From Deferribacterales bacterium Deferri_01 (GTDB lineage Bacteria; Chrysiogenota; Deferribacteres; Deferribacterales; Geovibrionaceae): a stretch of 64,000 bases of DNA. This document shows positions 1 through 16,500 of the stretch, one piece after another. Location of the stretch: the NCBI GenBank assembly GCA_001603805.1, contig LUZY01000006.1, forward strand, positions 1 to 64,000. Direction: 5' to 3'. A program made the position numbers and the translations under genes. The first letter of the stretch is position 1. Every line of letters starts with the position of its first letter. Under the pieces are notes generated by a model. The model was not told where the DNA came from and did not search any database. It worked only from the letters and a program-made list of their open reading frames with translations.

Positions 1-58
1 GACCAATTGTTCCTACGTTGACGTGGGGCTTCGTTCTAGCAAACTTAGCTTTAGCCAT
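1..58 (-). CDS. tuf: Elongation factor Tu, N-terminal fragment
   Basis: This is the first 19 codons of elongation factor Tu, running off the left edge of the window. The minus-strand translation begins MAKAKFARTKPHVNVGTIG, the standard bacterial EF-Tu amino terminus just before the GTP-binding P-loop. A good ribosome binding site (AGGAGG) lies a few bases upstream of the ATG at 58. The gene is the last member of a tRNA-tuf operon, with four tRNA genes directly upstream on the same strand. EF-Tu delivers aminoacyl-tRNA to the ribosome. Identity is secure although most of the gene lies outside the window. Confidence 0.96.
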   Translation of the reverse strand, partial: MAKAKFARTKPHVNVGTIG

Positions 59-80
59 CTGGTCTCCTCCTGAATTTAAA

Positions 81-154
<74 letters not shown>

Positions 155-216
155 GTCAAAACGCAAAAAAGGGGCGAACTGGTACGGTGTCGCCGCCTTT
201 GAAAGCACTAGAAAAA

Positions 217-290
217 AGCGGGTAACGGGACTTGAACCCGTGACCCTCAGCTTGGAAGGCTGATGCTCTAGCCAACTGAGCTACACCCGC
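217..290 (-). tRNA. tRNA-Gly (anticodon TCC)
   Basis: The minus strand shows the acceptor stem GCGGGTG-type pairing, a D arm with TAGCTCAGTTGG, the anticodon loop CTTCCAA and the T arm GGGTTCAAGTCCC. It is the third tRNA of the tRNA-tuf operon. Confidence 0.95.
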
Positions 291-337
291 ATATTGGCAT
301 ATATACCCACGGAACAACCCGTAGGAAAAAAAAGAAG

Positions 338-420
338 TGGGGAGAGGAGGATTCGAACCTCCGAAGTCTTACGACAACAGGTTTACAGCCTGCCCCCTTT
401 GGCCGCTTGGGTATCTCCCC
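338..420 (-). tRNA. tRNA-Tyr (anticodon GTA)
   Basis: The minus strand starts GGGGAGATACCCAAGCGG and ends in the matching CTCCCC acceptor strand. The anticodon loop is CTGTAAA and there is a long variable arm, as expected for a bacterial class II tRNA-Tyr. It is second in the operon. Confidence 0.95.
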
Positions 421-542
421 TTCTTATATTTTAAAATTTATGCCGCCCCGATAGAAGCGGCTTAAATCGACCGTCTTACTCAGACAACCGATTACTAAAG
501 CCTTGTTTATAAGAGCCGGGCGTAACCCGGCTCTTCAAGTGA

Positions 543-615
543 AGCTGGTGATAGGAATTGAACCCACAACCTACTGATTACAAGTCAGTTGCTCTACCGA
601 TTGAGCTACACCAGC
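543..615 (-). tRNA. tRNA-Thr (anticodon TGT)
   Basis: The minus strand shows acceptor GCTGGTG paired with CACCAGC, D arm TAGCTCAATCGG, anticodon loop CTTGTAA and T arm GGGTTCAATTCC. It is the first gene of the operon, giving the order Thr(TGT)-Tyr-Gly-Thr(GGT)-tuf, the same as thrU-tyrU-glyT-thrT-tufB of Escherichia coli. Confidence 0.95.
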
Positions 616-632
616 GTCTTTAGCGAAGTGAG

Positions 633-661
633 AGCATATATAAGAGAGCGTTTATTGTCAA
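633..661 (-). promoter_or_regulatory. Sigma-70 promoter of the tRNA-tuf operon
   Basis: On the minus strand a perfect TTGACA (656-661) is followed after exactly 17 bases by TATGCT (633-638), about 18 bases before the first tRNA. Position, spacing and strength fit a stable-RNA promoter. No start site has been measured. Confidence 0.8.
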
Positions 662-841
662 GTATTTTTTTGACATTTTTACAGCTCTTTTTCTTACGAA
701 CTTCCAAGCCGAAACAAGTGATGCCGCTTGAGAAATCCCCCTGACCGCTCTTAGGTTTCGGGAAGGAAAATATTGCATATACTTTTATCTTTGTCAATCT
801 ACTATTTTATGCTTTTTAAGAAAAAATTCAGGCAGCGCTTT

Positions 842-1684
842 TTACTGTTTTTTTTCGGCAAAACCACTGGTGGAATACACTCTTCCTTTTTCATTGATGA
901 AATACTCCCCACCGTAAGGATCAACAGGCACAACGGTTATCACACCTTTAGCCTTTAGCTCATCAACTCCTGAAGGTACGGTGAAATATTTTTCTTTGTA
1001 AATTCTCACTGCCTTTTCCAACTCTATTGCTCTCTGTAAGGCAATAAGTCTTTTTTCATACATTGCACGGACATTTTCATTGCCTGTGTGATTAAGCATA
1101 TCCAACAAGAAAGCTGCTGCGGTTTCATGTCTGCCGGAGTCATATGCAAGCCTTGCGGCAAGGTTGGCATAAAAAGGCGGCGCACCTTTAATTTTGGCTG
1201 CCTGCCCTATGTACTCCGATGCTTTTGCACTGTCTTTAAGGAAATAATAATAGATAAAACCAAGATTAAAAAGAAGCCTGTGGCTTTCCGGTCTCTTTTC
1301 TATACCTTTCTCAAGAATCTTCACGGCCGCCTCAGGACGGTTTGCGCTCCACGCAAGAGTTAACGAGGCAAAGTAATATGTGTCATAGAAATAAGGGTCA
1401 AGCTCTGAGGATGCCTTCACATTAGCCTCAAACCAGTCCCAATCCTGTCCTTTGATAATACCTCTGTCCTGAAGCATCTTCCCTACATAAAATATTGCGG
1501 AAAGCAGGCGGCTGTCTGCGGCAAGTCCTTTAAATTCAAGAGAGGTAAAACGTAAAAGCCTGCCTGAAACAGCTATATCACGCTCAAACTTTGAGTCGAA
1601 ATCGGCTTTATTGGTAATAAAAGCTCCGCTTAACCATATATGCAGGGGAATAAGAAGGCAGAGAAGCCCCAATGAGATTCTCAC
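842..1684 (-). CDS. TPR-repeat protein of the pilin/ABC operon
   Basis: This 280-residue protein starts with a single hydrophobic segment (about residues 3-22) that is a membrane anchor or signal peptide. A helical region follows with TPR-like repeats (about residues 85-180). The last 50 residues look like the C-terminal part of a type II secretion/type IV pseudopilin: a PVDPYGGEYFI stretch followed by a short strand-turn-strand. The start overlaps the stop of the ABC permease by 4 bases (ATGA), so the two are translationally coupled in an operon that begins with pilA. The family's function is unknown to me. By position I infer a role in pilin handling or in the ABC transporter's work. As I recall, a comparable ABC/TPR set lies beside pilA in Geobacter, which should be verified. 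Confidence 0.75.
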   Translation of the reverse strand: MRISLGLLCLLIPLHIWLSGAFITNKADFDSKFERDIAVSGRLLRFTSLEFKGLAADSRLLSAIFYVGKMLQDRGIIKGQDWDWFEANVKASSELDPYFYDTYYFASLTLAWSANRPEAAVKILEKGIEKRPESHRLLFNLGFIYYYFLKDSAKASEYIGQAAKIKGAPPFYANLAARLAYDSGRHETAAAFLLDMLNHTGNENVRAMYEKRLIALQRAIELEKAVRIYKEKYFTVPSGVDELKAKGVITVVPVDPYGGEYFINEKGRVYSTSGFAEKKQ

Positions 1685-2469
1685 GGGAACTCCTTACGCT
1701 CAAAAATTATCCCTGCCAGAAGAAGCAGAACAGCGGAATACACCAAAGCATATGCAATTGACCCGAAATATATTCCCGCAGGAGGCATTATTCCGTTTGC
1801 GGCAACCGTTTTGAAATCCAGAGATGAGAAATCCGGCACAATATACTTAACAATATTAAGAAAACCGGCAATAGCCGAGTAGGTTTCCGATGATGAAACA
1901 TAGCTCAGCACCTCCCCCAGACTCTGTCCTGCTATATATATAAGGATAGAGAACACCAGAGTCGTAAACGAAGCTGTGACGAATGAGCTGAAAAAGATAA
2001 TGACGGTATTGAGAAAGATACACTTAATCAGATCTGCAAAAGCTGCAAGAGCATATGCGCCCCACGAAAAGTTTTTAAAATATGCAGGGATTGACGCCTT
2101 CATAAGCAGTATAGGGATATGGGTAAGCAGAAAAATAATGATATAAGCACATATTATAAGGAGTGCAAGCCCTGCAAACTTACCGAATATATAGCCTCTG
2201 CGGGAGATATTGCGCCCAAGAACAAAATATATTGTGCGCCTGTCCAGATCCTTGGCGATCAAACCCACAGAGACGGAAAAGCTTATCAGAAGCCCGGCTA
2301 GAGACATTGCGCTCAGATTAAAATCCGCTACAACCTTGCCCAGATCCTGCATAAAAAACTGTGAGAAAATGGTGCTTAAAAACATGATAATAATGGCAAA
2401 AACAAAAATCGCATAAAGAACTCTGTTCCGTACGCCCTCAAGAAAAGTTATAAAGCATACCTGTCTCAT
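1681..2469 (-). CDS. ABC-2 type transporter permease beside pilA
   Basis: This 262-residue integral membrane protein has about six hydrophobic segments: near residues 13-40, 55-72, 95-120, 140-165, 170-190 and 235-258. It fits the ABC-2 permease family. It overlaps the upstream ATPase gene by 4 bases and the downstream TPR gene by 4 bases, so the three are one translation-coupled unit. Myxococcus xanthus type IV pili need an ABC transporter (PilH/PilI), and the location just after pilA suggests a similar role here. The substrate is not known. No frameshift or truncation is visible. Confidence 0.85.
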   Translation of the reverse strand: MRQVCFITFLEGVRNRVLYAIFVFAIIIMFLSTIFSQFFMQDLGKVVADFNLSAMSLAGLLISFSVSVGLIAKDLDRRTIYFVLGRNISRRGYIFGKFAGLALLIICAYIIIFLLTHIPILLMKASIPAYFKNFSWGAYALAAFADLIKCIFLNTVIIFFSSFVTASFTTLVFSILIYIAGQSLGEVLSYVSSSETYSAIAGFLNIVKYIVPDFSSLDFKTVAANGIMPPAGIYFGSIAYALVYSAVLLLLAGIIFERKEFP

Positions 2470-3314
2470 CGCACAGCCTCTTCAAATATACGCTCCAATG
2501 CGTTGTCAGCAGACTTCACAGTCACAGCGTTAAATCCTTTCAATTTCATGCTTTCAATAAAACTGACGATATCCGCTGAATCAACAAATACACCAACTGT
2601 CTGATCATATTCCGCAATTTGCATTTCCCTGACAGCCTCTTTCAGGCTTTCAGATTTTTCAAAGAATACTTCAGTCTGTTTGGAAGCCAGCAGAAGTTCT
2701 TCCCTTGTAAACATGCGGACTATTTTTCCTTTATTCATTATCGCAGCCGTATCACAAAGCCTCTCCACATCGCTTAATATATGAGAGCAGAAAAGCACGG
2801 TAGCCCCTTTCTCTTTCAGTTCAGTGAGGAGGTCAAAAACCATGCGTCGACCAAGGGGGTCAAGCCCGCTCATTGGTTCATCGAGAATCACAAGCTCCGG
2901 CTCATGGATTAGAGCGGCGGCAATGCCCGAACGCTGAACCATGCCCTTTGAAAAAGTGCGGAGCTGCTTATCAAGATTTTCAGCCATCCCTACCCTTTCC
3001 GCCATGTGATTAATACGCTCTTTGACACGGTCTTTAATGCCTGATGATGAAAGAGAAAAAGCGAGAAGTTCTTTCAAAGTAAGATAATCATAGTAGTATG
3101 GATTTTCCGGCAGATAACCAATATTGGTGCTGTCTACAATGACATTGCCGGATGTGGGGCGTATAAAGCCAAGAATGGTTTTGATCGTGGTGGATTTACC
3201 CGCACCATTGAGACCGAGAAGAGCAAAAACCTTGCCCTTTTTCACTTCAAAACTGATGCCGTCCACAGCGGTTTTCTTCTTAATACGTTTTACAAGGGAA
3301 TCTATCTTTATCAT
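2466..3314 (-). CDS. ABC transporter ATP-binding protein beside pilA
   Basis: This ABC ATPase of about 282 residues energises the adjacent permease. It shows a Walker A GLNGAGKST near residues 34-42, a divergent signature SKGMVQR (serine-lysine instead of serine-glycine), and a Walker B LVILDEP followed by the D-loop GLDP. The last 60-70 residues are a family-specific tail typical of ABC-2 export ATPases. I chose the ATG at 3314 (MIKIDSL); an in-frame ATG at 3329 is a possible alternative, and neither has a strong ribosome binding site. The gene follows pilA after a hairpin terminator, so it may be made at a lower level than the pilin. PilH-like function is inferred from position only. Confidence 0.87.
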   Translation of the reverse strand: MIKIDSLVKRIKKKTAVDGISFEVKKGKVFALLGLNGAGKSTTIKTILGFIRPTSGNVIVDSTNIGYLPENPYYYDYLTLKELLAFSLSSSGIKDRVKERINHMAERVGMAENLDKQLRTFSKGMVQRSGIAAALIHEPELVILDEPMSGLDPLGRRMVFDLLTELKEKGATVLFCSHILSDVERLCDTAAIMNKGKIVRMFTREELLLASKQTEVFFEKSESLKEAVREMQIAEYDQTVGVFVDSADIVSFIESMKLKGFNAVTVKSADNALERIFEEAVR

Positions 3315-3353
3315 AAGCGGATTATACATCAAACTTATGACGGCAGAAACAAA

Positions 3354-3384
3354 AAAAGCCGACCGGATAAACCAGTCGGCTTTT
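3354..3384 (-). terminator. Hairpin terminator after pilA
   Basis: AAAAGCCGAC pairs with GTCGGCTTTT around an 11-base loop, with a U-run on the minus strand. It sits between the pilA stop and the ABC ATPase gene. It could let pilin transcripts greatly outnumber transcripts that read into the ABC/TPR genes. Confidence 0.85.
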
Positions 3385-3406
3385 GGGAATTTAAACTAAG
3401 TAAGTG

Positions 3407-3865
3407 TTAAGGAGCAGCAGGGGCATCGCAGTCGGATACGGTATCGCCTCTGGACACGTTGTCATCAACATTAATAGTAGAGCTGTCTGAATCAGAAGAA
3501 TAGCAGTTATCTCCCTGAGTATGCTTTGTAACAGCAGCGTAGCTAATATTATTAGTACCTGCAGCAGTAACAATACCAACACCGGAAGAAAGCGTCATAT
3601 TATCTTCCTCACCATTTGTGCTGTTAAGAGTTATTTCACCAACAGCTGCAGCTATTGCATCAGGGTATTCCTGATAGTCGGCAAAGTAACCTTCAAAAGC
3701 CGTCTGAACATTTCTCAAGTCAGACTGAGCAGCAGAGTTATAAGCTCTTGTACGGTATTTGGAGAACTGGGGAATTGCGATAGCAGCAAGAATACCAATG
3801 ATTGCAACAACAACCAGAAGCTCGATAAGTGTAAAACCTTTTTTGTTCTTTTCGATCCTCATCAT
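3407..3865 (-). CDS. pilA: Type IV pilin, Geobacter-like
   Basis: This is a 152-residue prepilin. A 10-residue leader (MMRIEKNKKG) is followed by the prepilin peptidase site G/F and the hydrophobic helix FTLIELLVVVAIIGILAAIA with the conserved Glu5. The start at 3865 is fixed by AGGAGGTA five bases upstream. Counting from the mature Phe1, aromatic residues fall at 1, 24, 27, 32, 47, 50, 51, 54 and 57. This includes the six aromatic positions of the short Geobacter sulfurreducens PilA plus three more. Unlike that 61-residue pilin, this one has a C-terminal domain of about 80 residues rich in Ser, Thr and Asp, with two Cys (a likely disulfide loop). Assembly motor genes are not adjacent; an ATPase/platform pair lies at 43423-46274. 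Confidence 0.93.
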   Translation of the reverse strand: MMRIEKNKKGFTLIELLVVVAIIGILAAIAIPQFSKYRTRAYNSAAQSDLRNVQTAFEGYFADYQEYPDAIAAAVGEITLNSTNGEEDNMTLSSGVGIVTAAGTNNISYAAVTKHTQGDNCYSSDSDSSTINVDDNVSRGDTVSDCDAPAAP

Positions 3866-4122
3866 AAGGATACCTCCTGAAGTAGAAAAAATGTCTTTTG
3901 GACACATAATTTCGCTTTTAAAAAGCAACTTCTAAAAACAGTCTACCACAAAATTATCCATAGAACAGGTTTTATGCAAGTTAATTTTCACACCATTAGC
4001 TTTTAACACACTAAGTTCCTCTGTCAGCAATACTCTGAGGCTGAAAAAAAATTGTAAAACATTCATAGAAAAATAATATTTCAGAAAAAATATAATTTAT
4101 TAAATATGTAATTATCAAAACC
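3866..4122. other. Gene-free AT-rich region between pilA and tRNA-Leu
   Basis: No credible gene is present. The part nearest 3865 is the leader of pilA (minus strand) with its ribosome binding site at 3871-3878. I looked for a sigma-54 promoter ahead of pilA, as pilA has in several bacteria, and found GG and GC elements only at wrong spacing. The remainder is very AT-rich and leads into the tRNA-Leu promoter. Confidence 0.6.
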
Positions 4123-4151
4123 TTGACAGTTTTTTAAGAGAAACATAGAAT
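4123..4151 (+). promoter_or_regulatory. Sigma-70 promoter of tRNA-Leu
   Basis: TTGACA (4123-4128), a 17-base spacer and TAGAAT (4146-4151) end 18 bases before the tRNA-Leu gene. The match to consensus is strong. Confidence 0.85.
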
Positions 4152-4169
4152 ACGCATCCTTCATATAAA

Positions 4170-4253
4170 GCCGAAATGGTGGAATAGGTAGACGCAGCGG
4201 ACTCAAAATCCGCAGTCCGCAAGGGCGTGGGGGTTCGAGTCCCCCTTTCGGCA
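4170..4253 (+). tRNA. tRNA-Leu (anticodon CAA), island insertion site
   Basis: The acceptor stem GCCGAAA pairs with TTTCGGC. The D arm is GGTGGAATAGGTAGAC, the anticodon loop CTCAAAA gives CAA, there is a long variable arm, and the T arm is GGGGTTCGAGTCCCC. The last 19 bases plus 4 flanking bases recur at 24333-24355, so this gene's 3' end is the attachment site of the following island. The tRNA itself is intact. Confidence 0.96.
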
Positions 4254-4257
4254 CTCT
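4235..4257 (+). repeat. Left attachment repeat (attL) of the island
   Basis: This 23-bp sequence begins TCGAGTCCCC and ends CGGCACTCT. It covers the 3' end of tRNA-Leu, and an exact copy lies at 24333-24355. Integration into tRNA 3' ends by tyrosine recombinases creates this pattern, and an integrase remnant lies directly inside. Confidence 0.9.
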
Positions 4258-4302
4258 TTTTATATTCCTAGAAGATTTTAATATTTCCAAAATTACTAAT
4301 AA

Positions 4303-4655
4303 TTACTTATATATCTAACATTTATATTTCCTAGCGGTTTTAAATACTTTCGTATGGACTACCGCTTTGCTAGTAAAAGAAAGACACTGTCACTTGGTGT
4401 ATACCCTGAAATATCTCTCAAAGAAGCCCGTATAAAAAGAGATGAAGCAAGAAGGATGATTTCAGAAGGTGCAGACCCATTAATGTTGAAAAAAATCAAT
4501 AAGATTACTCTTCAGACAAGACAACCAAGAAACTTTTAGTATCTTTTCAAAGAAATGGTTCGATAATTATAAAGATTGATGAACGATAAAACATGGAGAA
4601 CGGAAATGTAGAAGACTAGAGATTCATACCCTGCCCTATATAAGCAATATGCAAT
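4303..4655 (+). pseudogene. Remnant of a P4-type tyrosine integrase
   Basis: Reading across several frames gives pieces of one integrase. An opening FPSGFKYFRMDYRF piece runs into KRKTLSLGVYPEISLKEAR, the hallmark of the N-terminal DUF4102 domain. After stops and frame changes come KKWFDNYKD and then RRLEIHTLPYISN, the start of the core-binding domain. The first 35-40 residues and the whole catalytic domain (the R-H-R-Y residues) are missing; intact relatives have about 400 residues. Its place right beside the tRNA attachment site is where the island's integrase should be. It cannot be functional. Confidence 0.82.
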
Positions 4656-4666
4656 AAAAATAATCA

Positions 4667-5082
4667 CTCCGCCAGTTTATTACAGAAAAACTCGTTTACG
4701 GGTAAACCTTCAAATCTAGGGCTGAATGGTTTGACTATGTGAGTACTTAGTGAGTTACCAAGCGGTAGGTATAATTTTCATTTTGATAGACGTCTCCGCC
4801 TGAGCACCTGTCAGACAAAGGCGGTACATGTCGTTTTCTGCCGATGTCTGTTCAAGCTTTACTATCAGCTGAAGAATATCTTTATCATTCAGGGAGAAAG
4901 CTTTCAAAGAATATTCTGGATTCAGTCACTTCGAACAATTTTTCTTTTATGGTCAGAATGAGCGACAGACCAGTAAGGCTGTACGCTTCGTCATATTCAA
5001 ATAGCATATCAACGCCTGTATTGATAAGGTTTCCAGCTTTTGCATACTCCCCTTTTACCTCGATGTAAATGTTAATGGTCCA
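4667..5082 (-). pseudogene. Decayed hipA-like kinase toxin gene
   Basis: Directly after the hipB-like gene, minus-strand frames encode hipA fragments in the correct order. These are INIYIEVKGEYAKAG, then FEYDEAYSLTGLSL and ESRIFFESFLPE, then RLCLTGAQAETS, and finally STHIVKPFSPRFEGLPVNEF. These match the N-terminal half of HipA kinases (the FEY, FFEGLLPE, LAGAQ and THIxKPxxxRFxG regions). Stops interrupt the frame, the start codon is lost to a frameshift, and the C-terminal half with the kinase active site is absent. The remnant ends within a few bases of the integrase remnant, so one deletion may have removed the ends of both genes. Confidence 0.78.
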
Positions 5083-5292
5083 TTATTCATCACCAACGTA
5101 ATTGGAGATCCCTACGTACCTGAGTAGCTTGATTACTTTGCCAATCTGCGCAGTAGGTTTCCCACGCTCCACTGAGGAAACTGTGCGGTTTACCCCTGCG
5201 CCCTCAGCAAATTCCTTCTGATTAAGCCCCTGCCCTTCCCTCTTTTGTTTGAGCAGTTGTCCTGTCTCTTCAATATCTGATATTTTCTCCAT
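5083..5292 (-). CDS. HipB-like XRE-family antitoxin/regulator
   Basis: This 69-residue DNA-binding protein is a single Cro/C1-type helix-turn-helix. The core is LLKQKREGQGLNQKEFAEGAGVNRTVSSVERGKP, written here only as its role: helix 2 and the recognition helix fall at about residues 23-45. I chose the ATG at 5292 (MEKISD), which gives the usual HipB length; longer in-frame starts exist but lack a better ribosome binding site. In intact hipBA operons HipB represses the operon and neutralises HipA. Here the hipA that follows is destroyed, so this is an orphan antitoxin or stand-alone repressor. The reading frame itself is intact. Confidence 0.75.
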   Translation of the reverse strand: MEKISDIEETGQLLKQKREGQGLNQKEFAEGAGVNRTVSSVERGKPTAQIGKVIKLLRYVGISNYVGDE

Positions 5293-5402
5293 ATTAATTA
5301 CTGTTAGAGAACTAAACATAACCTCAAGTATTTCTTTTTTTTCATATGTTACCAATTTGGCAGAGTTATCATTTGAATTAGATTAAATAAAAGGAGAATG
5401 GT

Positions 5403-5660
5403 ATGGTTAAAATTAAAATTATTAATGATGTTCCGAAAAGGATAATTGATAAAGCTCGAATGCTTATACATTTATCAAAAAATATGAACACTAATTGGCG
5501 AAAAATTTCAGGATTGACGCAAGCAAAATCCTACAAACTAAACAATAACTACAGAATGCTTGTTTTTAACGAAACTGTTTTTATTGGATCTCATGACAGT
5601 TATATTCGCATAATAAACTCATTAAAAAAACGTAATCTTGGGTGTAATTATGGAAAATAG
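5403..5660 (+). CDS. Small RelE/ParE-like protein (tentative)
   Basis: This 85-residue basic protein has a good ribosome binding site (AAAGGAG) before the ATG at 5403. The order of features resembles RelE/ParE-superfamily toxins: an N-terminal helix with VPKRIIDKARML, a WRKISGL turn, then strands in SYKLNNNYRMLVF and VFIGSHDSYIRII. The pattern 'xYRMLV...xHDxY' is common in such folds. The similarity is weak and judged by eye. Its last 11 bases overlap the start of the large TPR-containing gene downstream, which indicates translational coupling. No classical antitoxin lies beside it; the downstream gene is far too large for one. Base composition is strongly AT-rich. Confidence 0.55.
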   Translation: MVKIKIINDVPKRIIDKARMLIHLSKNMNTNWRKISGLTQAKSYKLNNNYRMLVFNETVFIGSHDSYIRIINSLKKRNLGCNYGK

Positions 5661-7689
5661 AAAAAAATATGCATTAACAAGCTACATCAAAGAAAAAGGT
5701 TATGGTAGCTCCATAGGCTTAAGCAACTGGATTGCTGGTATATTAAAAAATAAAGAAGACTTTAGAAAATATATTGTTGAACATGAGCATTATGGAAGAC
5801 GTGAAAAAATAGAAATTTATAAAGACGCTGAAATACTAATAGATAATTTATGCTTACTGAAACCTTACCTGTCAATTTTTGGAAAAGGAGAGAATAAAGA
5901 ATTTCCAGCATATAGAGGCTTAAAAAACCAGTCTAATTCTAAACAATATATTGATAAACTTAAAGAGAGAAAATCATTTCTAAAAGATGAAATTGAATCC
6001 AGAAATCAAGCACTAGAAAACTATGAATTTTTATATGAAATTCTCGAAAAGCACCTTCCCATTGATTTGGAAGGCCAAAGCCTCCTGGATTTGATTAACG
6101 ATATTAAAGCTCAGACTCCTGAAGGGAAGACAATCAAATTCGATAATAACAATATTAATTCTTTTTCAGTCCTAGACGAACTATTAGAACTTAAAGAGAA
6201 ACTTGAAAACGAAGATAAATCTAAAGCAAGCAGCATATATCGCAAGATGGCACTGTGCTATATAAAATTGTCTGAAGTTGATGATGCATTAGAGGTCCTT
6301 GACACAGCATTAAACATGAATCCAAAAGATAGTGACGCATGGGCACTAAAAGCAAAAATAATATTTGAATTATTAACCAGCGCAAACAAGGAACTCTCTT
6401 CAACTATAGCAAGAACAGAGTATTCTGGTCCGGAGGAATTTCCTATTACTTCAGAAGAACAAAATATAAGCGACCTATTTTATACTCAAATTACCGAGTT
6501 TGAACAATTAGGAATTATTTTTATTGAAACTTGCATAAACGCTTTATTAAACAGGTATAGCCACAATGGATCAATTCCACTAGTTTCAAATGAAGATATA
6601 AAATTTGAGTGGCTTATTATTAACCTTATAAGTACGCTGACTCAAACGACAACTGAAAAGTATCAAAAAGAGATTCAAATAATTTTTTCTAGATATTTGA
6701 AAAATTCTAATATCTATTTAAGACCACCATTTTTTGATAAAAATCAAAAAATTATATATGAAGTCAACCTAGTTAGAGTATTGTCCTGGCTATCGAAAAA
6801 TGAACTTCAAGAATATATTCACCACCTTACAGGTAAGCCTGAAGACTTTAACTTCCATCATGGGTATACATATAACTTTATAACTCACCCAAAAATTAAA
6901 AAATATTTCATAGAACATCTTGGTATACAAGAATATAAAAAATTATATAAAGAGCTATGGGGTGTAGAAAATGCAAAAAGAACTGCTGAACATATCAGAG
7001 AATTGATTATTCTTGAAACTCAGGATTTTAAGAATTTCAATAACTCACAAAATGATATTAAATCATTCATCGATCAAATGTCTCTGAAATATAATAACTT
7101 TGATGAATTCACTAAAAACGAAGCGTGGCACATATTCCCTTTTTCAGAGTATTTTCATACAGATGTTTATCTTTTTTTATTTACTGCGTCTCTATTGGCA
7201 CTAATTAGTGGAAACGCAACAGCGTCAGCCATAAAAATGGTCGAAGACTTTTCGCAACACAAAGATATTTTAAAAGATATCGCATCAAATGCGAATTCTA
7301 TCGCAGCTTATGAAATAACCAAAATTCTCGTTTACCATCTTGATCCAAACGGCAGATCAGAACGAAATATTTCTTACTCAGAACCTATTATTGATACTGA
7401 ATTTGAATTCACTGAAGGTAAAGGCAAACCGATACCATATGATGAACCTAATTACTTTAAGCAATTTGTACACACTATACCAGATATTTATGAAGCAAAT
7501 TTTGACAACGATATAAGCGAAGAGTACGAGTCAATAATCAATAATTATAAAACACAAATTTCACTTTATAGCCGCAAAAAAGCATGTCACTGTGACACAA
7601 TAAAAATAATAGAAACATTAAACACATTCCTGAAAATGAAAATAGAAGCAGACCAAATCAAGTATGGTGACTATTTAGATTGCTACTGA
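5650..7689 (+). CDS. Large protein with TPR segment, unknown function
   Basis: This is a 679-residue, mostly helical, soluble protein that I do not recognise. I placed the start at ATG 5650 (MENRKKYALT); an in-frame TTG at 5638 is an alternative. Residues about 85-115 form a charged helix. Residues about 190-240 hold a TPR pair (YRKMALCYIKLSEVDDALEVL, then NMNPKDSDAWALKAK). The middle and C-terminal parts are long helices without an enzyme motif I can name. There is no signal peptide or clear membrane span. The gene overlaps the preceding RelE-like gene by 11 bases and ends before a hairpin terminator, so the two form a closed two-gene operon in the island. Codon use is very AT-rich, which suggests foreign origin. 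A defence or stress-response role is possible but unproven. Confidence 0.72.
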   Translation: MENRKKYALTSYIKEKGYGSSIGLSNWIAGILKNKEDFRKYIVEHEHYGRREKIEIYKDAEILIDNLCLLKPYLSIFGKGENKEFPAYRGLKNQSNSKQYIDKLKERKSFLKDEIESRNQALENYEFLYEILEKHLPIDLEGQSLLDLINDIKAQTPEGKTIKFDNNNINSFSVLDELLELKEKLENEDKSKASSIYRKMALCYIKLSEVDDALEVLDTALNMNPKDSDAWALKAKIIFELLTSANKELSSTIARTEYSGPEEFPITSEEQNISDLFYTQITEFEQLGIIFIETCINALLNRYSHNGSIPLVSNEDIKFEWLIINLISTLTQTTTEKYQKEIQIIFSRYLKNSNIYLRPPFFDKNQKIIYEVNLVRVLSWLSKNELQEYIHHLTGKPEDFNFHHGYTYNFITHPKIKKYFIEHLGIQEYKKLYKELWGVENAKRTAEHIRELIILETQDFKNFNNSQNDIKSFIDQMSLKYNNFDEFTKNEAWHIFPFSEYFHTDVYLFLFTASLLALISGNATASAIKMVEDFSQHKDILKDIASNANSIAAYEITKILVYHLDPNGRSERNISYSEPIIDTEFEFTEGKGKPIPYDEPNYFKQFVHTIPDIYEANFDNDISEEYESIINNYKTQISLYSRKKACHCDTIKIIETLNTFLKMKIEADQIKYGDYLDCY

Positions 7690-7740
7690 AGTCATTAATG
7701 ACTGTAATTATGATGAGTATCATCAGACGTGTAAACATTT

Positions 7741-7767
7741 AAAGCCTCTGCGTTTTGCTGAGGCTTT
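7741..7767 (+). terminator. Hairpin terminator after the RelE-like/TPR operon
   Basis: AAAGCCTC pairs with GAGGCTTT around an 11-base loop, about 50 bases after the stop codon of the TPR gene. Confidence 0.75.
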
Positions 7768-7875
7768 ATCTTGCCAAAGATTAGCCTTAATCAACTCCAC
7801 AGTGTATTTGTAAACATTCCTAAAAATACAGTTCAGAATTAGAGTTTCCCTGTAGATTAATAACAGGAGGACTTA

Positions 7876-8096
7876 ATGAAACGCAGTCGATTTTCAGAAA
7901 CTCAGATCGTAAAAATACTCAAAGAAGCCGAGTCCGGCAGACAGGTAAAAGACATCTGCCGTGAGTACGGAGTAACGCCACAGACTACAACAGGAAGTCC
8001 AAATATGGAGGCATGGAAGCCTCAGACATCAAGAGATTAAAAGAACTAGAAGAAGAGAATACAGCTCTGAAAGATATTCTCTCAAAAAAGCTTTAA
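7876..8096 (+). pseudogene. IS3-family transposase orfA, frameshifted
   Basis: After a good ribosome binding site (AGGAGG), the frame reads MKRSRFSETQIVKILKEAE and CREYGVTPQT, the helix-turn-helix start of IS3-family (IS407-like) OrfA. About 35 codons in, a small deletion (four bases fit best) shifts the frame. The correct continuation SKYGGMEASDIKRLKELEEEN, a leucine-zipper-like helix, is found in the next frame and ends at 8096. The gene cannot make full OrfA. Confidence 0.85.
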
Positions 8097-8856
8097 AGCC
8101 GTCGGAGAAACGTAGTTTAGCAGATTACTGTAGGGCCGCTTACGGCATGAGCGTAAATCATACCTGCCGTACTGCAAGCATAAGCCGCCCGGTTTATTAC
8201 TATCAGCTGGATGTACATGTTATAGCTGTTCTGCTCGAACTGTGTGAGAAATATCCGGGATATAGCTTAGGGTTTATTGCCTACTGAAGCTCAACATGTT
8301 CCGTAAGGCGAAAAGAAGGCCTCCAAACAGGAATCCTCTCCCTATCAGTGTGCCTGAATCTATCAACCAGTCCTTGTCTATAGATTTCATGAGTGACAGC
8401 TTATACTGTGGGAGGAAATACAGAACATTTAGTGTCGTTGATGATTTTAATCGGGAAGCTCTTACCATAGAGGTTGATCTCAATCTTCCGGCAGCAAGAA
8501 TTATCAGAGTTCTTGCCAGGATTGCTTCTTGGAGAGGTTATCCGGTTAAGCTCAGAATGGACAACGGCTCTGAGTTTATCTCGGTAAAGCTGGCTGACTG
8601 GGCGGAATACCATGATGTTGAGCTTGAATTTATACAGCCTGGCAAGCCATTTCAGAATTCATATGTGGAAAAGTTTAATCGTAAATTCAGGAACGAGGTG
8701 CTGGACAGGCATTTGTTTTTCTCTTTAAGCGAAGTTCGGGAAGAAGCTGACCGATGGATGGTTGAATACAATACAGAAAGACCGCATGATTCTCTGAGGA
8801 AAATGACTCCGGAGGAGTATGCTGAAAGAGCGGAAAACTCTAAATATCTGCTGTAA
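8093..8856 (+). pseudogene. IS3-family transposase orfB, internally deleted
   Basis: The frame from 8093 gives the OrfB N-terminus (SLADYCRAAYGMSVN, then SISRPVYYY, then EKYPGYSLGF) and stops at 8285. It then resumes as KLNMFRKAKRRPPNR and an open DDE catalytic core from 8296: SIDFMSDSL with the first Asp, LRMDNGSEF with the second, and VEKFNRKFRNEVLD containing the Glu. About 20-30 residues between the two parts, normally the NHKRVYR region, are missing. Transposase activity is therefore unlikely. I could not define clean terminal inverted repeats; the element's ends should lie near 7820 and 8880. Confidence 0.85.
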
Positions 8857-9007
8857 GAAAAGAGGGACGCTTACAACAGTCATGTCACAATGATGTTAAA
8901 TCGTGGGCTTTAAAGTAATAACCATCACAAAAAAAAACGGTATTTTTGGCGGTATTTCCAAAATCATACAACCAACTAACTATTTATTATAAACGATATG
9001 CAAGAAC

Positions 9008-10333
9008 TTATCGATTCCCGCCTTCTTGAATAATGCCTAATTCAGCTAATCGACCTGATGCTGTTAAAAGACCATAATAACTAAGTATGTAATTCAATTT
9101 AGTCTGATAATAATCTTTTCTTATTTTGTAATATTGCTCTTTTGCGTCCAGCAAATCCACATTTGTTCTTGTTCCTATTGCAAAGCCTTTTTCATTGGCA
9201 ATAACAGCCAGCTTTGCAGATTCGATAGCCATTTGAAATGCATTAATCCTTGCGTGAGTACTAAGGAGATTTGAGTAAATATTCGAGATTGTTGATGTCA
9301 CATCAAGGCTGACTTGTTGTAATTCATATATTGTCTTAAATTTTAACTCGGCTTTTTCTCTGACTCCGGCAACCGTTCCGCCTCCCTGTATTAGAGGTAA
9401 CCTGAAATTCAAGCCAAAAGATGTGACTTCAGAGTCTTCTGCAACCCCATTTGTATCTCCGTTGCTGTCCGAATTAGTGTACGATGCGGTAAAATCAACA
9501 GTTGGCAAGTTTTTAGATTTTTCTTTGCGCAAAATGATTTCTGATATTGCCAGCTCAGCTTTTTTATACACTATATCAACGTTCTCTTTCTTAGCTTTGT
9601 TAATCCAATAATCTTGTGAATTAAGTTTGATATCGGTAAAAAAACCTGTTGCAAAATCATCTGCATCAATTTCGCTTTCCGGCAGATTAGCAGTAATTGC
9701 TAAAAGTTTTTTTGATAAGACATAAGCGTTGTTTACGGCTATTTCCTCAGCTAAAACAAGATCGTATCTTGCTTTAGCTTCTGTCAGATCGGTCACGGTT
9801 GCGTCACCAAGCTCAAAGCGTTTCTCCAAATCGTTCATTTGCTCAACAATCGAATTCTTTTTGGAAATTGTCACATTCAGATACTCTTTATTAAAAAGCA
9901 CGTTAACAAACGCTTCCAGAACTGCACCGAAAAGTTCCTCATATGTTTTCCTTAGCAATATTTTGCCTATTTTGGGATATTTCTTTGCTTCCTCGTAAGC
10001 AAGAAGAGATTCTGCCCTGAAAACAGGCTGGATAAACTTTAATGTATATACGGATGAATCATAGTTTTCAGAATACTTTGTTTCAACCGCACTCTTATTA
10101 GTAAAAACCGCATTTGAACTATTTTTCATCATTGATGCATCAAATGTAATTGACGGCAGTAATCCGGCTCTTGCCTGTTTCGTCTGTTCAAGCTGCGCTT
10201 TATAGGAATGTATAGCAGCCTGAATGCCTGGATTATCCTTTGAGGCCAGTTTCCACACCTCATCAAATGTCATAGCATACGTATCAGCAAGTAAAAACAA
10301 ACTAAAGATAAATATAAAAGTAGATTTCAGCAT
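9008..10333 (-). CDS. TolC-family outer-membrane channel of the type I system
   Basis: This 441-residue protein begins with a signal peptide (MLKSTFIFIFSLFLLADTYA). Two copies of the outer-membrane efflux domain follow, with long heptad-rich helices and the typical AKARYDLVLAE and ANEKGFAIGTRTNVDLLDA segments before the second beta section. I chose the ATG at 10333, which has GAAAGGTG upstream and an immediate signal peptide. It is the last gene of the secretion operon and lies 13 bases after the membrane-fusion protein. Known members form trimeric channels that dock onto a type I ABC exporter. It should carry the giant adhesin across the outer membrane. Confidence 0.92.
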   Translation of the reverse strand: MLKSTFIFIFSLFLLADTYAMTFDEVWKLASKDNPGIQAAIHSYKAQLEQTKQARAGLLPSITFDASMMKNSSNAVFTNKSAVETKYSENYDSSVYTLKFIQPVFRAESLLAYEEAKKYPKIGKILLRKTYEELFGAVLEAFVNVLFNKEYLNVTISKKNSIVEQMNDLEKRFELGDATVTDLTEAKARYDLVLAEEIAVNNAYVLSKKLLAITANLPESEIDADDFATGFFTDIKLNSQDYWINKAKKENVDIVYKKAELAISEIILRKEKSKNLPTVDFTASYTNSDSNGDTNGVAEDSEVTSFGLNFRLPLIQGGGTVAGVREKAELKFKTIYELQQVSLDVTSTISNIYSNLLSTHARINAFQMAIESAKLAVIANEKGFAIGTRTNVDLLDAKEQYYKIRKDYYQTKLNYILSYYGLLTASGRLAELGIIQEGGNR

Positions 10334-10346
10334 CACCTTTCTCTCT

Positions 10347-11627
10347 TTACTGTTCTTTAAAAGCTTTGCGAAAACTGTCAATAATAGGATCAAGGAGGTA
10401 ACGCATTACAGTTCTTTCACCGAATACGATATCAACAGTTGCAATCATTCCGGGAAAAAGCTTAACATCATTAAATTGTTTCTTTTGCAATTCCTCACTA
10501 TTTATGCGTACTATCGCTTTATAATAAGTGTCTCCCGTTCGTTCATCTTTGAATGTTCCCGCAGAAACTCTTGCGACTTCTCCCTGAAGAGCGAAATGTT
10601 CTCTGGCTTTGAATGCTGTCAATCTGACATAACTGGTTAAACCAGGATAAACAACATCAATATCATCAGGAAATACCCTTGCTTCGATGAGAAGCTCTTT
10701 ATCTAAAGGAACAATCTCCATAACTAAGCCGTTTGGAGGTATAACTCCGCCAATTGTTTTAAATCTGAGATCCTGAACAACTCCTTCAACAGGAGATAGA
10801 ATAATACTCCTTTCGGTTACATCCTGTGCGGCAGTTAGTCTTTCTGAAACAGTCGCCAAATCATCATACGCTTTCCTTAGCTGTTCAAGGAGGTCATTAC
10901 GCCACTCAGACTGAATCTTGAGAATCTGGAACTTTGTTTCGATTATTTTTTGTTCAGCACTGGCAATTTCAGCATTTATCTTTCCGAGTTCTCCTTCGGT
11001 TTCGGCGACTTTATTTTGGTTTTCCAACAGAATACGTTTTTCGATATATCTGTGTTCATAAAGCTCAGTATTCATCTTCAATGCTTCACCGGATGTAGAA
11101 AGAATTTTTTCTAAAGCGGTTCGGCTAAATTTCATTGCTGTTATTTCAGCTTCTGTCTGAGCAATTCTCTGACTTAAAATTTCTATATCCTGAAAAAGCG
11201 ATTCTTTTCTGACTCGGAATAGTTCAATTTGCGTAAATATTGATCCTGAAACATTTGATTGTATTTCTGCTTTGTATTGCTTGCCGTCTCTTTCTGCCTC
11301 AAGTCTTTTAACAATGGCTTCCAAGGCTGCTTTCTCATTTTCCAGCACAGCAAGCTGTGCCACTGCAGTTGAAATACTTAATTTTAGCAGTGGTTGTCCT
11401 TCACTTACTCTGTCGCCTTCTTTTACCATAATTTCTGAGACAACTCCGCCTTCCAGGTGCTCTATTTTAACAGTGTCTTCCGCCGGAATAATTTCTCCGT
11501 AAGCTACTGCTCCTGCATTAATTTTATATACTGATGCCCAAAACAAAATACCGATTACACCAAAGAAGATGATAAATAATCCTGTTGTTATGTACTTTTT
11601 AGTTGAAGAAGGAATGTTATCTTTCAT
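10347..11627 (-). CDS. Type I secretion membrane-fusion protein (HlyD/PrtE family)
   Basis: This 426-residue protein has a short cytoplasmic N-terminus, one membrane span (about residues 12-31), a first half-lipoyl domain (GEIIPAEDTVKIEHLEGGVV), a long coiled coil (about 85-265), the second half-lipoyl (ILSPVEGVVQDL) and a beta-barrel domain. This is the canonical HlyD/PrtE architecture. It bridges the inner-membrane ABC exporter to the TolC-type channel. It overlaps the ABC gene by 4 bases (ATGA). The IEHLEGGVVxEIxVKEGDxV motif is typical of the PrtE/LapC branch. Confidence 0.94.
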   Translation of the reverse strand: MKDNIPSSTKKYITTGLFIIFFGVIGILFWASVYKINAGAVAYGEIIPAEDTVKIEHLEGGVVSEIMVKEGDRVSEGQPLLKLSISTAVAQLAVLENEKAALEAIVKRLEAERDGKQYKAEIQSNVSGSIFTQIELFRVRKESLFQDIEILSQRIAQTEAEITAMKFSRTALEKILSTSGEALKMNTELYEHRYIEKRILLENQNKVAETEGELGKINAEIASAEQKIIETKFQILKIQSEWRNDLLEQLRKAYDDLATVSERLTAAQDVTERSIILSPVEGVVQDLRFKTIGGVIPPNGLVMEIVPLDKELLIEARVFPDDIDVVYPGLTSYVRLTAFKAREHFALQGEVARVSAGTFKDERTGDTYYKAIVRINSEELQKKQFNDVKLFPGMIATVDIVFGERTVMRYLLDPIIDSFRKAFKEQ

Positions 11628-13354
11628 GCAGTCATCCCTTCTTTAAACTGCATTTGCTGTTTTTTAAGACTGCCCGCAGTGAGCTGCTTTATAACTTCAT
11701 AATGTGGTCCATACATCTGAAGTAGACCGTCAGAAATCACTCCAAGAATATCTGCATCTGTTACCAACGAAAGCTTGTGAGTAATGACCACCACAGTCGC
11801 TTTCCTGCTTTTGGCTTTTTTGATAGCGCTGATCAAAGCTAGTTCTCCTTCGGAGTCCAAAAAAGCGTTAGGCTCATCCAGCACGATAAGTTTGGGATTG
11901 GCAAAAAATGCTCTTGCAAGCCCAATCCGCTGTTTCTGCCCTCCTGAAAGAGCAACTCCCTGAGAACCTATAATTGTGTCATAGCCATGTGGTAGTTGAA
12001 GGATCATTTTATGTGCATCAGTTTCGATAGCCGCAGCGATCACCTCATCATCAGTTGCATCGGAAAACCTTGCGATGTTGTCTCTGACTGTTCCTGAAAA
12101 AAGCATAATTTCTTGCGGTAGATAACCGACATATCTGCCAAAATTATCTCTGCTCCAGACATTTAAAACATCTGCATTATCAAGTTTGATACTTCCTGAA
12201 CGCAGCTTATAGATTCCGGTCATAACTTTGGCTAGTGTACTTTTCCCGGCGCCGCTTGCCCCCAGAAAGGCCACTGTTTTCCCTGCTGGAATTTCAAAAC
12301 TGATACCTTTCAGAATGGGAAAAACCCCTCCTGCCGGCACATAAACAGCTTTCTCAACACTAATCTTACCTACAGGTACCGGCAGCTCTGTTTTATTTTC
12401 CTCTAAATAAAACTCCTCAAACATTTCATTCAGCCTGTCTGCTGCAGCTTTAGTATTAATATAATTTTTCCAACTGTTTATAAGTCCTTCAAGAGGTGCA
12501 GTACCTTTAGAAGATAAAATATTTGCAGCAATCATTGAGCCCACAGTTATTTCATTATTAATAGCTAAATAAGCACCAACACCTGTCATGGCAATATTCT
12601 GACAGAATCTCGTAAATTTGCCTGCTGAAGCAAGATAGCCAGCCTTATCACTTGTTTCTGAAAGAATTCTTGTACTTTCACCATACTTAGAAAACCAATG
12701 CCTAAGGACATGATTTTTCATACCCATTGCCCTGACTGCATCTGAATTTCTCATTATTTCATCTGCAATATGCTGGGCTTCAAGAGATATTTCTCCTGCT
12801 TCTTTTAGTTTGCTACCAGTCAAAAACTCATTTACTACATTGATCATAAGGAGCAGCACCATACTCATGAACATAACAACCACAAGCAAAGGATGAATGA
12901 GCCACACAACAAAAAAGAATACAGGTATCCATGGTGCATCGAGTAGAGTTATTAATCCATGGCTCCCTGACATAAAATTTTTAAAACTGATAACATCCTT
13001 AATCGCCTGAGAGCTTACTTTACCAGTCATTGATGCCATATTGATGCTTGCATCCATCATTTTAGGATTGAGGTTCAGATCAATACTGTTTGCTATTCTT
13101 ATAAGAGAATGTGCCCGTATAAGATCAATTAGTGCTGATAAAAACAATGCAATTACTGCCCCTGTAATAAGCGCTATCAATGTATTTACACTACGGCTTG
13201 TGAGCACTCTGTCAAAAACCTGCAGAGAAAATATAGGAATGGCCAGTGTAAGAAGATTTATAAAAAAACTGAAAATTATAATAAAAGAAAAACTGCACCA
13301 ACTGACAAATTTAAAAACAGGTTTGTTTACAATATTATTAATTGCTTTAATCAT
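11624..13354 (-). CDS. Type I secretion ABC exporter (PrtD-like)
   Basis: This 576-residue half-transporter has about five to six membrane spans in its first 300 residues. The ATPase domain follows with Walker A GASGAGKST, signature LSGGQKQR and Walker B LIVLDEP followed by NAFLD. It starts directly with the membrane domain and has neither a C39 peptidase domain nor the longer N-terminal C39-like domain of HlyB/LapB. This fits PrtD-type exporters of proteases, lipases and S-layer proteins. It lies 171 bases after the adhesin gene with two hairpins between. Its expected substrate is that adhesin. Substrate pairing is inferred from gene order. Confidence 0.93.
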   Translation of the reverse strand: MIKAINNIVNKPVFKFVSWCSFSFIIIFSFFINLLTLAIPIFSLQVFDRVLTSRSVNTLIALITGAVIALFLSALIDLIRAHSLIRIANSIDLNLNPKMMDASINMASMTGKVSSQAIKDVISFKNFMSGSHGLITLLDAPWIPVFFFVVWLIHPLLVVVMFMSMVLLLMINVVNEFLTGSKLKEAGEISLEAQHIADEIMRNSDAVRAMGMKNHVLRHWFSKYGESTRILSETSDKAGYLASAGKFTRFCQNIAMTGVGAYLAINNEITVGSMIAANILSSKGTAPLEGLINSWKNYINTKAAADRLNEMFEEFYLEENKTELPVPVGKISVEKAVYVPAGGVFPILKGISFEIPAGKTVAFLGASGAGKSTLAKVMTGIYKLRSGSIKLDNADVLNVWSRDNFGRYVGYLPQEIMLFSGTVRDNIARFSDATDDEVIAAAIETDAHKMILQLPHGYDTIIGSQGVALSGGQKQRIGLARAFFANPKLIVLDEPNAFLDSEGELALISAIKKAKSRKATVVVITHKLSLVTDADILGVISDGLLQMYGPHYEVIKQLTAGSLKKQQMQFKEGMTA

Positions 13355-13380
13355 TTAAATAAACCTCTGGCTTAAGGGGA

Positions 13381-13466
13381 AGGCAGCTCCGAAGCATACG
13401 CTGCCGGAGCTGCCTTTAACCTTCAAAAGGAAAAACTGCCGGTATTCTTAGTTCAGGACACCGGCA
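13381..13466 (-). promoter_or_regulatory. Two intercistronic hairpins between adhesin and exporter genes
   Basis: AGGCAGCTCCG (13381-13391) pairs perfectly with CGGAGCTGCCT (13405-13415). TGCCGGT (13437-13443) pairs with ACCGGCA (13460-13466). Neither has a strong U-run on the minus strand. They could act as partial terminators or as barriers that stabilise the adhesin mRNA, so that much more adhesin than exporter is made. Confidence 0.6.
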
Positions 13467-13525
13467 AGATTGTAATCTTGTTCTTAGAGAGAGCCCGCCT
13501 TTAAAAAAGACGGGACTATTAATTG

Positions 13526-16500
13526 TTAATATGGATTAACCATGTTCATAATAGCATGAACATCGTAATCAGTTTCGGGCTGCCCTATGATTTGAAGAAT
13601 GTTCCCGTCAACTGAAGCAGAAAAGTCATGATCGTTTATTTCATCTGCTATTCCCTGGAGGAAGTCGCTTACTGACTGTCCTTCATTGTAAACAGCTTCA
13701 AACGAAAGATCTGCTACTCCGTTAAAATCTCCGTCATTATCTGTATCAAGAAGAACAAAAAGTGAATCTCCATTCACAAGATTCTCAAGAACAGTAACAT
13801 CAAATATTCCAGCAAGAGCATCACTCTCTTCCACATTCGGTGTGGGAGTAACAATAACTGCTCCGTTATCGTCAGTATCAGCTTCGGAACGGTTTAAAAC
13901 TTCACCCTCAATTGTAAAACCTGTTCCAACGTTATTTGCTGTAACTTTAATAACATCGTAAACACCGGAACCATTTTCAGATTCAGCTGCTTCAAAAGTA
14001 AAGTTATCACCTAAATCCCAAAGCTCAAGTTGGTCAAGAAGTGCAGAGACAATATCTCCAACAGTCTCATCGCCGCTGAGGACGTATGACTCAGTGTGCC
14101 CGTCAATTGTTACTGAGTAAGTATCACCTACTTCAATTGTTCCCGTGGAAACTGTCACTGTTTCAACCTGAGCAACGGCATCAACTTCTGTGACATTATC
14201 GTTTTCAACTGTTATATCAGTGTTTTGAGTATCATCTGCTCCTGCAGGACGGTTGATTACTTCACTTTCAAGAGTGAAATCCACACCAGGATTTACTGCT
14301 GTTATTTTGATGACGTCATAAACACCGGAGCCGCTTTCAGACTCTACAGCCTCGAAAACAAAGTCTTCTGTTGTATCCCAAGTTTCAAGCTGGTCGATAA
14401 GCGCAGATACTATATCGCCCACTTCCTCATCACCGCTGAGAACATATGATTCGGTATACCCATTAAGTGTCACAGAGTAAGTGTCACCTGCCTCAATAGT
14501 TCCGGCAGTTATTACAACCGTGGAAACCTGTGCAATCTCATCGTTGCTTGTTACCGAATCTTCACCTATGGTCACAACGTTTTCTGTAAGCTCAATATTT
14601 GACATTACAAGGCTGTAAGTAAAAGACGAACCGCTGATATTAGCCTGAAGTTTCAGTTTACCGCTGTCGTTGGAAGCGGTTACACCTGCATCATCAAGAA
14701 GACCAGCAACAGCGTCAATAATTTCATCCGTATCAGCTTCATTTCCGGTTACAGTGTAAGTGTATTCTGCACCGTTAACTGTAAGACTGAAAACATCTCC
14801 TGCGTCATATCTCTGTTCACCGAGGTCATATTCAACAGTCTGGGTTTCGGGAATGACTTCTTCAACATTTTCAGTGTCATTGCTGACTTCAGGCTGGGTA
14901 TTATCCTGACCTTCTGCACGATTAACGACAGACGGTTCAACGGTAAAAGGAATGCCCGCATTCTCTGAAGTGAGAACAAGCTTGTAACCGCCGTTTCCAT
15001 CATCTTCAACGCTGTAAGATATATCTCCGGAGGTCAGCAGTTGTATCTGATCCCCCAGACTATCAAGTATATCATAATGACTCTCGCTGTCTTCATAGGC
15101 GACAGTGATAGCCGCTTCTGCAATAGAGTTGTCATCTGCATCTTTGATGGTTATTGAGTACACATCACCGTATTCAGGACTGTTATCTCCATCAAATGAA
15201 ACTTCAGTAACCTGTTTAACATCATTTGCAACAGCTTCCTGAGTTGGGTCAATATCTGCATCGCCTGTGTTTGCAGTGCCGGAGTAGTCCTCACCGTTTA
15301 CAGTGGAGTCAAAAGATGTACCGTCTGCTTTACCGGTGAGAGTAAGTTTGTCTGCACCTGAATCATAAGAAGCTGTAACATCCGTTTCACCGTCATTAAT
15401 TGCAATTACAAGTGCAGCTGCAAGTTCATCAAGGCTGGAGATATCGTCACCGTTGATTGTAACGGTATATTCGTTCTCTCCTATCGTCACTGTTATGCTG
15501 TCGCCTATGTCGCTTGCTCCTGCCAGAGTGTAAACATCTACCTGAGGAGTTGCGGAAGATACTGCAGCCTGAGTAAGATCAACATTTATGTCGCCTGTAT
15601 TTGCAGTGCCGGAGTAATCCTCACCGTTTACAGTGGAGTCAAAAGATGTACCGTCTGCTTTACCGGTGAGGGTAAGTTTGTCTGCACCTGAATCATAAGA
15701 AGCTGTAACATCCTCTTCACCGTCATTAATTGCAATTACAAGTGCAGCTGCAAGTTCATCAAGGCTGGAGATATCATCACCGTTGATTGTAACGGTATAT
15801 TCGTTCTCTCCTATCGTCACTGTTATGCTGTCGCCTATGTCGCTTGCTCCTGCCAGAGTGTAAACATCCACCTGAGGAGTTGCGGCAGATACTGCAGCCT
15901 GAGTAGGATCAACATTTATGTCACCAGCGTTTGTGGTAGCTGAGTAGTCTTCAACACTAGCGGTAACATTAAGTTCATGCCCAATAGCAGTTCCTGAGAT
16001 TGTAAGGACACCGTCATTATTTATAAGCGTAAAGCCTGACTGTTCTCCGAAAGCTGTAACAACAAGATCTGCAAGATCCACGGGACTGGTGGTTTCAGTA
16101 ATTACTATTTCATGAGTTATGCCATTAATAGCAACCGTTACAGAATCTCCTGCATCGTAGCCTGCGACACCAAAGTCTATTGTCGTTTCCTCAACTTCTG
16201 CCGAAACACCTTCAACATTAGGTGTAGGTGTTTCTATAGATGAACCAACTGTGCCAGAAGTTATAGTAAACTCTTCTCCTGCTGTTTTTGAGCTTATAAT
16301 AAGCTGACTGCCCTGACGGATTGCACTTACTTCACTGTTTATATCAGGATTTGCGCTAATCGCAGTTTTAAGACCATTCAGAACTGTCGTCAGTGTTGCA
16401 CCGGGTTTTGCGGTGTAAGAAACCTCCGTACCGTTTATCGTTACGGTGTAGGTTCCGGGAGCAATCGCTTCAGTGAAGGTAAGAGTGCTTACCTGTGCAA

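Follow-up and report, generated by a model that had tools for sequence, protein, structure and literature searches.

The locus described here raises the question of what a small RelE/ParE-like protein does when its gene overlaps that of a far larger protein. We analyzed a stretch of 64,000 nucleotides of Deferribacterales bacterium Deferri_01 (contig LUZY01000006.1, positions 1 to 64,000), hereafter the window, in which a preliminary description made from the sequence had pointed out such a two-gene operon. We named the small and the large protein P0001 and P0002. Our preferred reading, to which we assign a probability of about 40%, is that P0001 is a defence-associated RNase of the RelE family, held or triggered by P0002 acting as a large, sensor-like partner.

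Two intact, overlapping genes in a decayed island

P0001 and P0002 are real, intact genes arranged as had been claimed (Table 1). They overlap by 11 bases, from the ATG at 5650 to the P0001 stop codon ending at 5660, and a ribosome-binding-like AGGAGA stands immediately 5' of P0001. A TTG at 5638 offers P0002 an alternative start, which would give 683 aa; the ATG agrees with how standalone proteins related to the N-terminal domain align. The long P0002 frame is not a chance frame, since base composition alone gives 679 open codons a probability of about 10^-25 and the other five frames across this stretch are open for at most 73 codons. Its GC content by codon position is 0.40/0.27/0.25. Of the hairpin terminator said to close the operon, the hairpin stood and is strong, but it has a poor T-run and is missing from the output of the terminator scan.

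Table 1 Features of the locus and of related loci. Positions are those of the window unless a locus is named.
Feature	Position	Strand	Remarks
tRNA-Leu(CAA)	4170..4254	+	likely island attachment gene
Integrase arm-type DNA-binding remnant	4354..4539	+	PF13356 E 1.1e-12
hipA N-terminal stub	about 4880-5080		just downstream of the hipB-like gene; by eye
HipB/Y4mF-like HTH gene	5083..5355	-	divergent from P0001; TIGR03070 E 2.9e-14, below its cut-off
P0001	5403..5660	+	85 aa; predicted RelE/ParE (BECR-fold) superfamily, PF24732-like
P0002	5650..7689	+	TPR protein, all-helical in the model; 679 aa from ATG 5650
P0002 N-terminal domain and long helix	5650..6087	+	residues 1-146; sole part with clear relatives besides the TPR
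TPR match	6238..6360	+	P0002 residues 197-237; TPR_19 29.5 bits, cut-off 25
P0002 residues 250-679	6397..7686	+	helical in a low-confidence model
Hairpin after the operon	7740..7768	+	fold z -2.81; terminator-like, weak T-run
Insertion-sequence transposase remnant	7877..8856	+	integrase core 8296-8856, rve_3 E 1.9e-25
G130 locus	L104:7390-11261 (G130:C24)		871-aa ankyrin protein, then viperin, then P0001-like gene
Rumen cassettes	L076, L080, L144, L145		P0001-like gene, B12 radical SAM, ~700-aa protein

The pair sits on a partly decayed island of low GC content (27.5% in P0001 and 30.6% in P0002, versus 42.4% in the window). The island setting was recovered as described earlier, with the tRNA-Leu gene, an integrase remnant and an insertion-sequence remnant flanking the pair; within the last of these, the part belonging to a first ORF and the IS3 label were read by eye. 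The hipBA remnant beside the pair was recovered as well. Its hipB-like HTH gene, whose product matches the PDB entry for HipB(Lp) at E 6.6e-4, is followed by a broken hipA-like stub, a short frame containing stops that we take, by eye, to be the N-terminus of HipA. P0001 and P0002 are the best preserved content of the island, the rest being mostly decayed mobile-element debris. On reading the ORFs of window 1-14000, we found no radical-SAM, viperin or other intact defence gene adjoining the pair.

A 12-base direct repeat (window 4282-4293 and 8953-8964) flanks the low-GC island and may be due to chance. The repeat TATTTCCAAAAT was considered as an attachment site and rejected, as it does not stand out in length among the two-copy repeats tabulated with it.

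An island so full of remnants invites the explanation that the pair is passive cargo, that is, two horizontally acquired genes left behind with no present joint function. This would agree with P0002 being largely an orphan, and with the absence of both P0001 and P0002 from every one of the 11 further genomes searched in this family. However, both frames are intact and overlap, and the N-terminal domain of P0002 is linked to a P0001-like gene in a second lineage (see below). We consider passive cargo quite unlikely.

A predicted RelE-type fold for P0001

The assignment of P0001 to RelE/ParE-like proteins, previously made by eye, was supported by a profile match just short of its cut-off, the predicted fold and conserved residues. 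P0001 matches PF24732 (ParE_like) at E 4e-5 and 24.0 bits, just below the cut-off of 24.4 bits; relatives described below score 21.9, 23.5 and 27.9 bits (rumen lineage) and 16.2 bits (genome G130). PADLOC returned no match for P0001. Fold prediction, suggested in the preliminary description, was run on both proteins. The AF2 model of P0001 (4 sequences; mean pLDDT 82.3, pTM 0.69) has the topology beta-alpha-beta-beta-beta-alpha, and in a Foldseek search with it RelE-superfamily toxins ranked high, with a best E of 0.022 and none at or below 0.001. The model was structurally re-aligned to 998 PDB chains ranked by Foldseek; RelE/ParE-superfamily toxins make up all of the first 19 entries listed, at Z up to 6.4, in a range (Z below 8) that may be chance according to the tool's own note. 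YoeB, RelE and YafQ top this re-alignment at Z 6.4 to 6.0, with YoeB 2a6r (Z 6.4, 64 residues, 2.3 A), RelE 3bpq (Z 6.3, 71 residues, 2.9 A) and YafQ 4mmg (Z 6.3, 69 residues, 2.6 A). The BECR-type fold calls for caution because the Foldseek E is only 0.022 at best; as modelled, P0001 is a RelE/ParE-superfamily (BECR-fold) protein. PDB profile searches with profiles A4 (the P0001 subfamily) and A2 gave no informative relative.

We next compared residues in an alignment of nine rows, comprising seven members of the P0001 subfamily, E. coli YafQ and E. coli RelE. Y50-R51 of P0001 aligns with the Tyr-Arg of both toxins, R51 falling on RelE Arg61, and G62-S63-H64 aligns with G85-T86-H87 of YafQ. 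R51 and H64 are kept in all seven subfamily rows. In the RNase branch, RelE R61 and YafQ H87 are catalytic-type residues; an H87Q mutant of YafQ appears in the PDB title of 4mmg. Pairwise profile runs of P0001 against YafQ and RelE gave the same pairings at probabilities of only 0.1 and 1.1, which are negligible, so we base the mapping on the motifs held in common and on the multiple alignment. This residue pattern would favour an mRNase over a gyrase inhibitor.

In its predicted fold, its YR and GSH motifs and its size, P0001 is like the PF24732 and RelE-ParE toxins (YoeB, YafQ, RelE, HigB). It is unlike them in that it falls just short of the PF24732 cut-off, has no small antitoxin upstream and has a 679-aa partner. 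Apart from the divergent HipB-like gene, six-frame reading of 5250-5720 revealed no ORF for a small partner, and the earlier view that this is no ordinary toxin-antitoxin pair stands.

P0002 is a TPR protein with few relatives

AF2 modelled P0002 as entirely helical, with low reliability (pLDDT 51.7). P0002 had been credited with a TPR pair and otherwise with no recognizable family. One TPR_19 match was found, which makes "pair" slightly generous. For residues 250-679, 384 genomes contained no convincing relative (three weak matches besides the own genome, the best at E 1.7e-4 in G108). Residues 1-146 do have clear relatives. Relatives of this N-domain occur in one of the 384 genomes (G280), in 11 of 28 genomes of a rumen lineage and at 11 loci in genome_contigs; all are standalone proteins of ~160 aa, apparently from one rumen lineage. 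Searching the 384 genomes with the whole of P0002 matched 18, namely the own genome, G280 as a real relative and 16 weak cases, 15 of which overlap the TPR region while that of G108 covers residues 349-421.

Neither P0001 nor P0002, nor any of their relatives, had a relative in the viral contigs or in the plasmids and phages searched. Full-length P0002 likewise had none there, nor by peptide patterns in genome_contigs, the latter being weak evidence of absence because single-sequence patterns find only close relatives. PADLOC gave only JetC for P0002 (E 0.026). Across Pfam, PADLOC and NCBIfam the pair received only RelE-like and TPR labels and chance-level matches, and it matches no named system, as first proposed. 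The pair is neither ordinary nor a named system.

Relatives of P0001 adjoin radical-SAM genes and genes for large proteins

A search of the 384 genomes with P0001 matched 14 at E up to 0.05, and besides the own genome only G130 was convincing (E 7.8e-9). A profile built from P0001 and the G130 protein, run over the 4,250 ORFs of 138 loci, added three strong members (E 2e-16 to 5e-15). Each of the three lies in a locus that had been taken solely for the N-terminal domain of P0002, a link not sought in advance. With a five-sequence profile, one P0001-like copy each was found in five of the 28 rumen-lineage genomes, while among 160 related genomes the strong matches were confined to the own genome and G130, next to two weak ordinary members. 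The subfamily was found in only three lineages.

Outside the rumen lineage, the protein most closely related to P0001 is that of G130 (40% identity). Its gene overlaps by 13 bases a viperin gene, whose product matches the PADLOC pVip profile at E 1.1e-50; a small zinc-ribbon-like frame follows the P0001-like gene, and an AbiEi-like gene (weak, E 7e-4) is near. Of the six viperin loci with E below 1e-45 in the 384 genomes, only that of G130 has a P0001-like gene. In the own genome the pVip profile matches just once, on a different contig (E 2e-24), and the window locus differs from the pVip defence system in having no viperin gene. The overlap in G130 resembles the relE genes that the accessible text of Gerdes 2024 (PMC10865869) reports beside pVip genes, with a proposal that the two cooperate.

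In the rumen lineage, a protein of 684-790 aa is encoded downstream of the P0001-like gene in all five loci, and in four a B12 radical-SAM gene lies between the two; L078 is without it. The radical-SAM proteins match PDC-M51A, PDC being PADLOC's label for candidate systems, in three of three scanned (E 1.1e-71 to 2.8e-76; the scan left out that of G400). Rumen relatives of P0001 lie directly upstream of PDC-M51A-type enzymes, whereas the window locus has neither a PDC-M51A gene nor an adjacent radical-SAM ORF. Our literature search found no paper on PDC-M51, and the rumen radical-SAM proteins matched nothing in the viral contigs. A radical-SAM match in Acetoanaerobium was set aside, as it had no strong P0001-like neighbour. 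At L080, the ~700-aa gene recurs upstream as a partial copy.

Across the subfamily, a radical-SAM gene adjoins the P0001-like gene in 5/7 loci (G130 and four rumen genomes). In other bacteria, relatives of P0001 neighbour known or suspected antiviral enzymes, which makes the pair a candidate for a defence module not yet described. A role in defence, earlier suggested by the island setting, draws in our analysis on these neighbours, viperin and PDC-M51A, and on nothing from the window itself, where the island is mostly debris.

The same company would suit another role, in which P0001 is a non-toxin accessory or RNA-binding subunit of RelE-like fold that serves the large protein or the radical-SAM enzymes, P0002 doing the main work. 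The recurring radical-SAM neighbour fits such a subunit, as does the fact that, by reading, a dedicated antitoxin was seen in none of the seven subfamily loci. A subunit of this kind is harder to reconcile with the conserved catalytic-type Arg and His, or with the window locus and L078 (one of the five rumen loci), which have no radical-SAM gene; we judge it unlikely.

The lack of a small antitoxin-like ORF directly upstream in these seven loci bears on a second alternative. Ordinary PF24732 members have an ORF of 67-77 aa just upstream in four loci (L011, L012, L015, L151), which suggests that the wider family behaves like toxin-antitoxin. One could then suppose an ordinary addiction or stress module in which a large TPR protein, fused to the antitoxin or standing in for it, serves as neutraliser or chaperone and does not sense phage. 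The fold and residues of P0001, the overlapping genes, the hipB/hipA remnant nearby and the upstream ORFs of the ordinary members all speak for such a module. But the seven loci of the subfamily itself are without that small partner and relatives accompany antiviral-type enzymes, which makes us think this module rather unlikely.

Finally, the HipB-like gene starts 47 bases from P0001, and the divergent HTH protein, not P0002, could act on P0001 as its antitoxin and repressor. In higBA, RelE-fold toxins are paired with HTH antitoxins, and a HigA-like HTH gene (by eye) lies ~2.7 kb from the G130 relative, at L104:4273-4740. However, the window's HTH protein resembles the HipB of a broken hipBA, and by reading an HTH gene is directly adjacent in none of the six other subfamily loci; we hold this to be very improbable.

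At L145:8540-9110 (-), beside the P0001-like cassette, a gene is followed by a second frame (by eye); we take them to be DinJ/RelB-like and YoeB-like. Pairing of the P0001-like gene of this genome, G398, with the upstream DinJ/RelB-like gene was rejected because the YoeB-like frame comes after that antitoxin (by eye).

P0001-like genes and the P0002 N-domain are linked in a second lineage

In all four rumen genomes that have both an N-domain gene and a P0001-like gene, the two share contig and strand and are separated by 2.7, 3.8, 4.2 and 11.2 kb; in the fifth genome, G398, the P0001-like cassette is present but nothing matches the N-domain. By a hand estimate, a random position would fall within 11.2 kb on the same strand of a ~2.4-Mb genome with a chance of ~0.5%. 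Since the linked genomes belong to one genus, this linkage counts as nearer one event than four. The ~700-aa gene is directly upstream of the N-domain gene in nine of the 11 genome_contigs loci and further upstream in L077 (seen in L144); it was not seen upstream in L083. Co-occurrence of the two families, a point raised with the first description of the pair, was thus found in four genomes of one other lineage, but there the two are encoded separately, and no other occurrence of full-length P0002 was seen.

We considered that P0002 might be a fusion of such neighbours, with its C-terminus homologous to the ~700-aa rumen proteins, and found no support for it (blastp E 0.084, profile probability 0.1). 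Nor did P0002 show detectable homology to the 871-aa ankyrin protein of G130, and the ~700-aa rumen protein and the ankyrin protein do not match each other.

A model for the P0001/P0002 pair

Our model suggests that P0001 is a ribonuclease effector of the RelE family, similar to YoeB and YafQ, and that P0002 is its dedicated large partner, translationally coupled to it and keeping it inactive. When the TPR and helical sensing part of P0002 meets a trigger, for example phage infection, P0001 would be released or activated; it would then cut mRNA on ribosomes and stop growth, in a defence resembling abortive infection. The RNase activity of P0001, its neutralisation by P0002, the sensing and the phage defence are steps that we infer. 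The observed support consists, in the window, of the intact overlap, the predicted BECR-type fold, the kept catalytic-type residues and the lack of an adjacent small antitoxin, and, elsewhere, of the large proteins and the antiviral or candidate antiviral radical-SAM enzymes that recur beside members of the subfamily, together with the N-domain linkage in a second lineage.

The accessible text of Gerdes 2025 (PMC11980606) describes toxins of the RelE superfamily that belong to multidomain or novel defence operons. The window pair is similar to these BECR toxins in placing a RelE-fold effector in an unusual, partly defence-like operon; the same text mentions no TPR partner (0 occurrences of 'tetratricopeptide'). 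Among open PMC papers, we found none on a RelE-type gene with a large TPR partner.

The usual partner of a RelE-type toxin is a small antitoxin; a subfamily accompanied instead by large repeat proteins, and by radical-SAM enzymes of the viperin or B12 type, would tie toxin RNases to sensor-driven antiviral immunity, and it bears on why relE genes adjoin viperin genes. One could speculate, although we doubt it, that this subfamily is a common RNase effector of modular antiviral systems with interchangeable large TPR, ankyrin or helical sensors, joined in some lineages by radical-SAM enzymes (viperin, PDC-M51A). The window pair would then be the minimal two-gene form, in which a domain encoded by a separate gene elsewhere is fused to the large protein. 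The two-gene form of the window would be a convenient minimal system for testing.

Other genes near the island

Just left of the island, window 3407-3928 (-) encodes a protein that by eye resembles type IV pilins, its N-terminus being of the prepilin type. A repeat-rich, adhesin-like protein of 2,755 aa is encoded at window 13526-21793 (-), and its gene is adjoined by ABC transporter, membrane-fusion-like and outer-membrane-efflux-like genes (9008-13354), in the style of type I secretion (by eye).
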